In this document: piece after piece, positions 57,423 to 61,411 of the stretch
How positions within the stretch are numbered: position 1 is the first letter of the stretch
Layout of the letters: every line of letters begins with the position of its first letter
Assembly (NCBI RefSeq): GCF_000284315.1
Contig: NC_017094.1
Location: 1,643,486-1,707,485, forward strand
Direction: 5' to 3'
DNA: 64,000 bases
From: Leptospirillum ferrooxidans C2-3
GTDB taxonomy: Bacteria; Nitrospirota; Leptospirillia; Leptospirillales; Leptospirillaceae
Made by a program: the position numbers and the translations under genes
Notes under the pieces: generated by a model
Told to the model about the DNA's origin: nothing
Database searches by the model: none
The model's input: the letters and a program-made list of their open reading frames with translations, nothing else

Positions 57423-57740
57423 ATGCTGATCAGAAAGATCTCTTCCCTGTTCGTCGCGTTTGCGTTTATGGGAGCAATCTCCCTGACCGCAGCGCCAGTT
57501 TCTTTTGCCGCAGATGCAACAGCACCCGCAGCTCCTGCCGCCAGTGCACCAGCAGCTCCCGCAGCTCCTGCCGCACATCATGCCAAGAAGCACATGAAAA
57601 AGCGACATGCACGTCATGGTTGCAACCATCACAGCAAGTATTATCGCCGTCATCATCGTTGCTATCCAAAGCATCACCATTATGCCAAACACCATCATCA
57701 CATGAGACATCACCACAAGAAGCATCACCACAACGGGTAA
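57423..57740 (+). CDS. Secreted histidine-rich peptide, possible MNIO precursor
   Basis: A 105-residue protein from the ATG at 57423, set by AAGGAG. It has a Sec signal peptide (cleavage near VSFA-AD, residue 29), an Ala/Pro repeat segment (31-51) and a basic C-terminus with 22 histidines, mostly in HH or HHH clusters. Two cysteines, C67 and C80, sit in HGCNHH and HHRCYPK. It is likely a periplasmic or secreted metal binder. The next gene encodes an MNIO/DUF692 enzyme, a family that oxidises cysteines in small metal-binding peptides such as bufferins, which also carry signal peptides. This makes it a candidate substrate, though a terminator separates them. Confidence 0.7.
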   Translation: MLIRKISSLFVAFAFMGAISLTAAPVSFAADATAPAAPAASAPAAPAAPAAHHAKKHMKKRHARHGCNHHSKYYRRHHRCYPKHHHYAKHHHHMRHHHKKHHHNG

Positions 57741-57757
57741 TATTCAACCCGAACATG

Positions 57758-57783
57758 AAGGGGGGATTTCCCCCCTTTTTTTT
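57758..57783 (+). terminator. Intrinsic terminator after the histidine-rich peptide
   Basis: A GC stem (AAGGGGGG against CCCCCCTT with loop ATT) is followed directly by a run of T. It is a textbook Rho-independent terminator and ends the peptide transcript before the MNIO gene. Confidence 0.92.
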
Positions 57784-58029
57784 CCACTCGAACCACCACA
57801 CACCTCCAGCACTCATCCGATCAAGAATCCCTAACAAATACCCATCGGATCCACTTTTTCACTCACAAGACCAGACATGATCCAATCTTCCGATGAATCA
57901 TTTGAACGAGACAATCAAAAGGAAAGACCTCCGGATTTTTGAAATCCAATCCGCTAAAATCCGATAATGATAAAGTTGAGAAATACGTCCACAGAGGGCT
58001 CCATCCATCACAGTCAAGGATACTGATCA

Positions 58030-59445
58030 ATGCCCAAAACGGATCTCCCCAAACTTCCATTGAGCCATCCGTATAAAATCGGAATCTCTACAGACCTCTA
58101 TTTCCCCCCCATCGATGCCCTCTACCACTCACTCACCGGCGTCGGTGAGACTCATCCATCAGAAAATCTGCCTGACTATATAGAGATTTTTCGCGGCCGA
58201 ACGGTTGACATGAAAAAAACCCGGGAAGAAACGATTCCCAAAAGGATTCCCCTCACCTATCACGGAGATGCCCTTTGGTACACCCAGACGAATTTCAGGG
58301 AACAACCTGCAACAAGACAGGAAATCATACGGGCGAATGCCCATATGGACGCACTCGAATCCGAATGGATGATTCACGAGTGTGCACATAAATCGTTTGG
58401 GGGAAGAACCTTTGGAACATACCTCCCGCCACTTTTCTCAAGAGAGTCGGCCCACCAGATCAGGGAAAACACCTTGTGGCTCATGGAGCAAATGGAAGGA
58501 CGACAGTTGATTGTCGAAATTCCACCCTTTCCGTTTTTTCTGGCGGGATCCATGCATCCTGGAGAATTTTTCCATTCGATCCTCAAGGAAACATCTATTG
58601 GACTGGGACTCGATATAGGTCACTTGATCACAATGCTCGAAGCTCTCGGAATCAAACCCCAACCCGAGGCCATCACCTCATGGATCAATCATTACCTCCC
58701 CATCGAACATGTCATGGAAATCCATATGGGAGGGCTCTCCTTATTTAAAAATTCGGAAATAACGCTTCACCAGGATGACCACACTGCTCCCATTCCCCAA
58801 CTATTATGGGAATCCCTCGAGGCTGTCTGCCGTTATTGCCCAATGAAGAATCTCAAGGGGCTGGCGATTGAAGTCGACAATAAAGAGATTGCAACCATTC
58901 TCCCGGAATTCCAGAAGTTTTATCGACTGATACAAGATTCAGCCATTCCGCTTGAATCCCTGTCACTTTCAAACAGGGAACGCCAAGCCATTACGCCTTT
59001 GAACCTTTACTCTTTGGATCCTGATGCCCTGGAATTGGAGTATCAAGATTTGTCCGCATATCTTTCCAGGCAAACATCAAACACCTCCCAATTCATTCAA
59101 GGCTTCCCCAATATTTACAGAGATTCCATCTACCCTTATGAAATATGGTCTTTTGGTGGAGAAATCGAAGCCATCTTTCCTGACACAATGAACGTCATAC
59201 GCTTTTTTCTAAAAGACCCCCAACAATCTTTTGTCGAATACTTTCATCAGGATCTTCTTTCGGAAATATTTCCCTTTGATTTTCTGGTGGTCAAGGTCCT
59301 GAAGTTCCAGGAATGGATTGGCAAACTCGCTTCAGAGGGAATATTCCCTGTCGACGTCCAAGACATTGCAATCCAGACATCCCGTCGGGAAGGAAGAAGA
59401 GCTCTGGATGACCAGGCATTGATTAATGGGGATGAGCTGGCGTGA
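58030..59445 (+). CDS. MNIO (DUF692) enzyme with C-terminal partner-like domain
   Basis: The first 300 residues match the MNIO (DUF692) TIM barrel, whose members bind two or three iron atoms and oxidise cysteine in peptides (MbnB, TglH, bufferin enzymes). Candidate ligands are H78 (LTYHGD), H116 and H120 (MIHECAH), E163, D195 and H198 (LGLDIGHL), E230 and H232 (MEIHMGG), D250 and H251 (QDDHT) and E281 (IEVDN). MNIO proteins are usually about 280-300 residues; here about 165 more follow. That tail (IYRDSIYPYEIW, IFPDTMNVIRFFL) resembles the DUF2063-type partner, normally a separate protein that binds the substrate peptide. AAGGA precedes the start. The nearest small gene is the histidine-rich peptide upstream. 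Confidence 0.8.
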   Translation: MPKTDLPKLPLSHPYKIGISTDLYFPPIDALYHSLTGVGETHPSENLPDYIEIFRGRTVDMKKTREETIPKRIPLTYHGDALWYTQTNFREQPATRQEIIRANAHMDALESEWMIHECAHKSFGGRTFGTYLPPLFSRESAHQIRENTLWLMEQMEGRQLIVEIPPFPFFLAGSMHPGEFFHSILKETSIGLGLDIGHLITMLEALGIKPQPEAITSWINHYLPIEHVMEIHMGGLSLFKNSEITLHQDDHTAPIPQLLWESLEAVCRYCPMKNLKGLAIEVDNKEIATILPEFQKFYRLIQDSAIPLESLSLSNRERQAITPLNLYSLDPDALELEYQDLSAYLSRQTSNTSQFIQGFPNIYRDSIYPYEIWSFGGEIEAIFPDTMNVIRFFLKDPQQSFVEYFHQDLLSEIFPFDFLVVKVLKFQEWIGKLASEGIFPVDVQDIAIQTSRREGRRALDDQALINGDELA

Positions 59446-59664: not shown

Positions 59665-60729
59665 TTGCAGCTATTTACCTTTCCATTAACAAAGGACATT
59701 CTTGTTGGTGTCAGACTTGACGATATCCTTAAAATTCTCAAAGGGGAACAGCTGACTTTTGAATCACCGGGAGGTCTTCAAACCGGAACCATTCATGAAA
59801 ATGGACACCAGACTCCAGTTTTTGATTTCAAACGAGCTTTCGAAAAAGAGGACAGCCAATCGCTTCCCGCCAGACTCTTAGTCATCGCTTTTTCAAATGG
59901 CGCTCGCTTTGGCATCGCCACGACCAAAATCGGAAAAGTGATCAGGGAAAAGACTCCCAACGAACGAAAAACACTGGAAAAATTGGGTCTCCCATTCTTA
60001 AGCTATTCTGACACCATTGACTCCATACCTGTTTACGTTTTTGATGTCCATTCCTTTGAACAGCATATGGGACTTCCAGTGTTATCCTCATTCGTACAAT
60101 CAGAGAAAGAAAAAACTCAAATGACAAACGATGAATCTCGGGGTCTGCCCAAACAAGATGATGCCAGTGCCGATTTATTGAATCAGGTTGGAAAGACTGC
60201 AAGAGAAATCCAGAAGATCCTCTCCATGTCAGACTCGATGATGGATACGATGAAAATGATGGAGACTCATCTTCCCCAAACATCCACAGGGCTTGAGGCC
60301 GTATCCAAAATGACGGAAGAGGCAGCACACAAGCTCCTTGAGGGGTTCGAAAAATCACTGGAGACCAACAGGGAGCTTCGAGAAGCTGTACAAAGAATGA
60401 AAGAAAGCCCCAAGACACTTCAGGCAGAGCTGCAATCCGTTGAAACACTCCTTTCCGAAGAAGAAGAACGAATCCTTCATGGATTTGAAGCGATGGTCTT
60501 TCAGGATCTGGTTGGACAAAATATCCGGAAAATGACCGGGACATTAAATGACCTCCAAAACAAACTCCTTACGATCCTTGTCGAACTTTCTCCACAATCC
60601 AAACATGAAGCACCTGAAGATAAAGGATCCTCTGCTCCGATAGAAGCTCTTGATCTCAAGGGAACGGGTCATCCGACCGATGTCAATCAGACAGATGTTG
60701 ATAAACTGCTTTCCGAATTTGGGTTTTAG
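59665..60729 (+). CDS. CheW-CheZ fusion protein
   Basis: The N-terminal 140 residues resemble CheW (GTIHENGHQTPVFDFKRAF; LLVIAFSNGARFGIATTKI), the adaptor linking receptors to CheA. The C-terminal part resembles CheZ, the CheY-P phosphatase: a long helical region with the active-site segment FQDLVGQ, where D281 and Q285 match E. coli D143 and Q147, and a C-terminal VDKLLSEFGF that matches the CheY-binding tail. The 354-residue protein thus joins an array adaptor to a phosphatase. The start is TTG with AAAGAGG six bases upstream. No other che genes are adjacent; a soluble receptor lies at 34.8 kb. Confidence 0.75.
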   Translation: MQLFTFPLTKDILVGVRLDDILKILKGEQLTFESPGGLQTGTIHENGHQTPVFDFKRAFEKEDSQSLPARLLVIAFSNGARFGIATTKIGKVIREKTPNERKTLEKLGLPFLSYSDTIDSIPVYVFDVHSFEQHMGLPVLSSFVQSEKEKTQMTNDESRGLPKQDDASADLLNQVGKTAREIQKILSMSDSMMDTMKMMETHLPQTSTGLEAVSKMTEEAAHKLLEGFEKSLETNRELREAVQRMKESPKTLQAELQSVETLLSEEEERILHGFEAMVFQDLVGQNIRKMTGTLNDLQNKLLTILVELSPQSKHEAPEDKGSSAPIEALDLKGTGHPTDVNQTDVDKLLSEFGF

Positions 60730-61171: not shown

Positions 61172-61411
61172 ATGGCAATCGTTCATTGTACAAGGTGTGG
61201 GGCTGATGCTGAGGGTCTCGAACAACCTCCTTTCCCTTCAGGCTTTGGAAAAGAGGTACAGGATTCAGTCTGTAAAACGTGCTGGACTGCATGGGAAGAT
61301 ATGCGCGTAAAAGTGATCAACGAATATCGACTGAATCTGGGGACACCAGAGCACAGAACCATGCTCGTCAATATTACAAGGGACTTCCTGGGACTCAAAA
61401 AACCGGAATGA
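61172..61411 (+). CDS. YggX-like iron-trafficking/oxidative protection protein with four cysteines
   Basis: A 79-residue relative of YggX, which protects iron-sulphur enzymes. CTRCGADAEGLEQPPFP and WTAWEDMRVKVINEYRLNL, then TPEHRTMLVNITRDFLG, match the family. E. coli YggX has only one conserved cysteine, but here there are four in two CxxC pairs (C6, C9, C34, C37), suggesting a zinc- or iron-bound knuckle. GAGGAG precedes the ATG. It lies after the structured RNA candidate and before a bidirectional terminator. Confidence 0.82.
   Translation: MAIVHCTRCGADAEGLEQPPFPSGFGKEVQDSVCKTCWTAWEDMRVKVINEYRLNLGTPEHRTMLVNITRDFLGLKKPE

Follow-up and report, generated by a model that had tools for sequence, protein, structure and literature searches.

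The gene at positions 58030-59445 of the window (the whole stretch of DNA that was analyzed, 64,000 nucleotides from Leptospirillum ferrooxidans C2-3) appears, with fair though not high confidence and on the basis of sequence comparison and a structural model, to encode a cytoplasmic MNIO (multinuclear non-heme-iron oxidative enzyme) with a partner-like helical domain of its own, acting on a substrate encoded in trans. The fused MNIOs of the Nitrospirota probably constitute a subfamily that works without a separate partner protein and whose substrate gene is not linked to that of the enzyme. The gene and its parts are as follows.

58030..59445, + strand: fused MNIO gene, 471 aa (PF05114 match, AlphaFold2 model, homologs in 136/396 Nitrospirota genomes)
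58072..58938, + strand: predicted MNIO TIM barrel, about residues 15-303 (ligand conservation; top nine Foldseek matches are MNIO chains)
58939..59019, + strand: inter-domain linker, about residues 304-330 (pLDDT <50 at 310-325; the two ORFs of genome G263 break here)
59020..59427, + strand: predicted C-terminal all-helical domain, residues about 331-466 (model and alignment; G376, G377, D417, K422 and E454 invariant)

The MNIO barrel and its distribution in the Nitrospirota

By profile match and predicted fold, the product of 58030-59445 is an MNIO (DUF692) barrel, as the initial annotation had proposed. Pfam PF05114 (MbnB_TglH_ChrH) matches residues 49-285 of the 471-aa protein with 47 bits (cut-off 25), and the AlphaFold2 model, with a mean pLDDT of 89.8, finds DUF692/MNIO chains (TglH, MbnB, 3bww) as all of its nine best Foldseek matches in the PDB. 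Both the TIM barrel and the conserved iron ligands of the MNIO superfamily are present. The ligand set comprises H78, H116, E163, D195, H232, D249, H251, and E281, and the metal-binding role that had been assigned to such residues agrees with an alignment of 48 homologs, in which H78, E163, D195, H232, D249, H251, and E281 are invariant and H116 is nearly so. Six of these residues (H78, E163, D195, H232, D249, and H251) are identical in 7/7 aligned BufB enzymes from plasmid bufferin operons, H116 is matched in at least 90% of rows, and E281 is equated with BufB by motif position only. None of the NCBIfam equivalogs scores above its cut-off; the nearest are ApyH, which gives the best NCBIfam score for the Leptospirillum enzyme at 46 bits against a family cut-off of 400 bits, and BufB at 40 bits. 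No ApyA-like precursor was seen for the Leptospirillum MNIO.

The fused enzyme was detected in 136/396 sampled Nitrospirota genomes, about a third, from five families. It is found in 21/21 Leptospirillaceae genomes searched, with one MNIO per genome, and also in Nitrospiraceae, and the GTDB contigs with homologs include Leptospirillum MAGs and many Nitrospira, among them Ca. N. defluvii. The extra C-terminal domain noted earlier proved to be a confidently modeled helical tail that is kept in 55/56 homologs read through, the sole exception running into masked bases. In the phylogenetic tree, the sampled fused Nitrospirota forms make up one clade apart from BufB, and no related fused enzymes were found on plasmids or viral contigs. 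The same enzyme occurs throughout the nitrite-oxidizing Nitrospira, so that its range is not limited to acid, metal-rich habitats, and the suggestion that it is fitted to them is not supported.

Two other MNIO loci were observed in the course of these searches. Some Nitrospira (G113:C3, L152:2995-5612) possess, in addition to the fused MNIO, a bufferin-like operon made up of an exported small protein, a second MNIO, a DUF2063 partner, and a membrane protein. On a Piscinibacter gummiphilus plasmid (L157:3231-8585), the gene for a diverged MNIO is preceded by a 225-aa ORF, which may encode a partner, and followed by a gene for a carbamoyltransferase, an arrangement that recalls the std cluster of PMC13174530.

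The C-terminal helical domain and known MNIO architectures

In current MNIO research, an active field, control of the iron state and recruitment of the substrate are both ascribed to the partner protein. The initial annotation regarded the tail as a DUF2063-type partner fused to the enzyme, an assignment of which one part stood and another did not. Residues about 331-466, following the low-confidence linker at 310-325, form an all-helical domain that is confident in the AlphaFold2 model. A Pfam scan of 40 tails gave no match to PF09836 (DUF2063) or to any other family, and comparison of the tail profile with DUF2063 by hhalign gave a probability of 0.2% against 7 bufferin partners and 0.4% against 34 DUF2063 proteins, with an overall range of 0.2-2.6%. 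The comparison of the predicted tail structure that had been suggested as a check did not bring out DUF2063 either, since a Foldseek search of the PDB with the tail returned no match at E <= 0.001. Overall, Pfam, NCBIfam, hhalign, hmmsearch against decoys, and Foldseek yielded nothing significant for the tail as DUF2063. An RRE domain after the helical domain is likewise absent, the modeled tail being all-helical without an RRE-type beta sheet.

What remains of the assignment is an end-to-end profile alignment that scores above shuffles and decoys. When the tail was aligned end to end by hhalign with the DUF2063 N-terminal domain (34 proteins), about 130 columns were aligned in a register that runs through LxxLQ..., YR, FP, a conserved E, and an (A)D/NGD-PL end. 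The global score was 15.1 vs a maximum of 14.7 for 150 column shuffles and 9.8 for 27 real decoy profiles; this register had been seen by eye before the global hhalign comparison, and the global score is accordingly no independent prediction. The local score was equalled by 14/150 shuffles and 5/27 decoys, i.e., it lies within noise, and the global signal is therefore suggestive only. For a helical domain of the PME-type 2 or DUF2063-like kind, which would share its structure with 3dee or TglI but lack the sequence signature, the observations are this global score above the decoys on one side and the empty Foldseek search on the other. The tail could be a genuine if strongly diverged partner of the DUF2063/PME type, joined to the enzyme, and to this we give somewhat less than an even chance: the global score and the conserved motifs in register speak for such an origin, as does the position of the tail C-terminal to the barrel, which corresponds to the usual MNIO-partner gene order (PMC12452194), but the hhalign probabilities, the local score, and the lack of Pfam or Foldseek support speak against it, and the tail could instead be a ChrH-type bundle or an unrelated helical domain.

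A partner-like role of the tail is plausible on the basis of this end-to-end alignment, of the gene content of the family, and of one genome in which the tail is a separate ORF. No stand-alone DUF2063 gene was found in the Leptospirillaceae genomes, including the window's genome (G000), and among the Nitrospirota DUF2063 occurs in 31/396 genomes vs 136/396 with the fused MNIO. G263 encodes the barrel (314 aa) and the tail (156 aa) in two ORFs that overlap, with the break in the linker region (L146:6976-8357, G263:C33). This split is nested inside the fused clade in the tree, which marks it as a secondary split or a frameshift; one inserted C would join the frames, and a C run is located at the site. 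G263 is kept as supporting evidence only, because it is a single genome nested in the fused clade and a one-base frameshift would also produce the arrangement. A built-in partner is further supported by the conservation of the tail across five families and by the single clade of the fused forms.

Several known MNIO architectures are relevant to this layout. MNIO partners comprise DUF2063-RRE proteins and also shorter DUF2063-like "PME-type 2" proteins (PMC12452194). In the ChrH subfamily, the barrel bears a C-terminal helical bundle and DybH acts without a partner, whereas the Cyanobacteriota have the bundle as an independent polypeptide, MelHc, which is essential and accompanies MelH (PMC12636315). 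MovX is an MNIO with a fused RRE, and HvfB artificially joined to HvfC shows high activity and attains the mixed-valent diiron state (PMC13419390). One DUF692-DUF2063 fusion among 216 DUF2063 proteins had already been recorded in 2009 (PMC2954202). In view of the ChrH/DybH bundle, the MovX RRE, and the 2009 fusion, the Nitrospirota layout is not new in kind, and the earlier claim of a new layout is given up. Among the papers searched, none names MNIO together with Nitrospirota or DUF692 together with Nitrospira, and "Nitrospir" is absent from the main text of the MNIO landscape paper.

Of these systems, ChrH/DybH and MelH with MelHc resemble the Nitrospirota enzyme in combining a barrel with a C-terminal helical bundle without a separate partner gene, the bundles being compared by description, and MelH/MelHc represents a lineage with the bundle as a separate polypeptide, comparable to the overlapping tail ORF of G263. 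In contrast to ChrH/DybH, the Leptospirillum enzyme has no adjoining precursor gene and its genome has no protein ending in CPxCGxG: substrates of this ChrH type number 0 in G000, and any match is found in 7/61 genomes, with a similar result for a control pattern. Since no CPxCGxG protein is present in G000, the enzyme is not filed as a ChrH member. The bufferin and oxazolin systems, BufABC and HvfABC, share the superfamily and the iron ligands, and their substrates are exported; however, their separate DUF2063-RRE partner is co-operonic with a Cys-motif precursor, whereas the Nitrospirota tail is fused and displays no RRE. At the Leptospirillum MNIO locus, neither a co-transcribed Cys-motif precursor nor a DUF2063 partner was found, and a terminator lies between the enzyme gene and the His-rich gene upstream of it. 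The engineered HvfB-HvfC also has the partner at the MNIO C-terminus, but it is man-made and contains a full DUF2063-RRE, in contrast to the natural Nitrospirota form with a single helical domain.

Neighboring genes and candidate substrates

The region directly upstream of the enzyme contains the following features.

57423..57740, + strand: predicted secreted His-rich protein gene, 105 aa, with 22 His and C67 and C80 (ORF and 13-homolog alignment)
57615..57674, + strand: conserved His-rich core H-x-C-N-H-H-[ST]-[KR]-Y-[YW]-[RK]-[RK]-H-H-R-C-Y-P-x-H (13 homologs)
57757..57787, + strand: intrinsic terminator (GAAGGGGGGATTTCCCCCCTTT followed by a T run) separating the His-rich gene from the enzyme gene (-18.3 kcal/mol, z -3.0)

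The exported peptide with 22 His and two Cys that had been placed upstream of the enzyme is confirmed as an ORF with a predicted Sec signal; a Shine-Dalgarno-like AAGGAG at its start and a Sec-type N-terminus with VSFA/AD were both read by eye. No Pfam or NCBIfam family exists for the protein, which is specific to the family and has an invariant core of the CNHH-x5-RHHRCYP type. The gene is single-copy (strong match) in 20/21 Leptospirillaceae genomes and, in 18/18 genomes with both genes on one contig, precedes the enzyme gene by no more than 7.5 kb in the same orientation. Its adjacency to the enzyme, which had been named as a check, is confined to the window's genus, where the gap is about 0.3 kb. 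The gap widens to 1.8-1.9 kb in genera g2 and g4, where an opposite-strand GGDEF/CHASE3 gene and a small TPR gene intervene, and to 6.0-7.5 kb in g3, where an efflux operon and a multiheme cytochrome gene intervene. Genome G006 (g5, 99% complete) has the enzyme but lacks the His-rich gene, which was also not detected in the tested Nitrospiraceae genomes carrying the enzyme. The terminator is conserved in 3/3 genomes of the window's genus, its stem being kept and its loop changed in G001 and G002, which indicates that the His-rich gene is its own transcription unit.

An operon of the His-rich gene and the enzyme gene is rejected on the basis of this conserved terminator together with the lack of adjacency in the other genera. 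The enzyme might still oxidize C67 and/or C80 before export to give a bufferin-like periplasmic metal binder, in line with the invariance of both Cys in the motif over 13 homologs, the conserved single-copy occurrence upstream of the enzyme, and the Sec signals that bufferins and oxazolins likewise carry. This is nevertheless improbable, because the gene has its own conserved terminator, lies in other genera at a distance of 1.8-7.5 kb with opposite-strand genes in between, and is missing from G006 and from the tested enzyme-bearing Nitrospiraceae, and the enzyme has no RRE-like domain to read a signal peptide. No finding singles the His-rich protein out as the substrate; it is probably a syntenic neighbor and not the substrate, and it may itself buffer metals or protons.

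The substrate candidate with the closest genetic linkage in the Leptospirillum family is instead an exported lipoprotein with a CarboxypepD_reg-type domain. In 17/17 testable genomes of genera g2-g5, its gene comes immediately after the enzyme stop or overlaps it, and in the proteins of these genera C107, P108, and C134 are invariant besides the lipobox Cys. A copy is also kept in 3/3 genomes of the window's genus, where it is unlinked to the enzyme and in G000 is located 1.3 Mb away.

G000:C1:403429-404175 (about 403.4-404.2 kb; L134:5397-6236): unlinked two-Cys CarboxypepD_reg lipoprotein gene of G000, adjoining a cytochrome b561 gene

If this lipoprotein were the substrate, the MNIO would modify the CP and/or FxxC Cys in the cytoplasm before lipidation, as in the newly described DAG-RiPPs. 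The linkage in g2-g5, the three invariant residues, and the retained copies in the window's genus are consistent with such a reaction, and lipoproteins and proteins >30 kDa are among the substrates that MNIOs accept (PMC12636315). On the other hand, the lipoprotein was not detected in five tested Nitrospiraceae genomes with the enzyme, its two Cys in a beta-sandwich are most simply explained as a structural disulfide, and it carries no known MNIO motif, CPxCGxG being absent. As the link to the enzyme is broken in the window's own genus, the lipoprotein is regarded as a rather unlikely candidate and not as the established substrate.

In other lineages, the enzyme has other neighbors. In most Nitrospira loci, the stop of the enzyme gene overlaps the start of a gene for a tRNA-dihydrouridine synthase of the Dus type, and in the other Nitrospirota families yet other genes are found beside the enzyme. 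There is no gene whose linkage to the enzyme holds across all the families, and this favors a substrate encoded in trans; a conserved small precursor gene was likewise seen in none of them. The overlap with the Dus gene and the lack of a small precursor would also fit an enzyme that no longer modifies peptides and oxidizes another target, e.g., one related to RNA or a cofactor. Such a change of target is very doubtful, since the Dus linkage was not seen in Leptospirillum or the other families examined and the characterized MNIOs all act on peptides or proteins (PMC12636315, PMC12452194).

Two further genes of the window lie downstream of the enzyme. The product of the next gene (59665-60729), a neighbor in most genomes of the family, contains a CheZ domain (170-354, 68 bits) and a weak CheW-like N-terminus (14-94, below the cut-off), and is a possible CheW-CheZ fusion. 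A gene for a YggX-type Fe(II) trafficking protein (PF04362, 68 bits) is located at 61172-61411, and it belongs to the neighborhood of the enzyme in several other genera too.

Proposed mode of action and implications

For the preferred reading, a cytoplasmic MNIO with a built-in partner-like domain and a substrate encoded in trans, the following course of events can be proposed. Judging from the fold and the conservation of the ligands, the barrel would hold an iron cluster. Most likely, the tail lies against the barrel, shapes the pocket, and stabilizes the active iron state; in this way, it would do the job of the separate partner or of the ChrH bundle and render a separate partner gene unnecessary. 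The enzyme would then use O2 to oxidize a peptide or protein in an iron-dependent reaction located in the cytoplasm, in keeping with the MNIO superfamily, whose members bind 2-3 Fe. Because no RRE-type beta sheet is predicted in the tail, the substrate would probably be chosen through a motif near the modified residue, as in ChrH/DybH, some of whose substrates are lipoproteins or large exported proteins, and not through a leader or signal peptide. The substrate would be encoded in trans, and the His-rich protein would be a separately transcribed syntenic neighbor.

A more far-reaching proposal, which is rather unlikely as a whole, is that the enzyme is a natural partner-free MNIO that has spread vertically in the Nitrospirota and modifies an unlinked host protein, in Leptospirillum the periplasmic lipoprotein, as part of ordinary physiology and not of a secondary-metabolite pathway. 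The presence of a fused MNIO in about a third of the sampled Nitrospirota, including many nitrite oxidizers and the iron-oxidizing Leptospirillum group, raises the question of which protein they all modify. A natural single-chain MNIO with its tail would be a convenient model, given that HvfB-HvfC had to be fused artificially.
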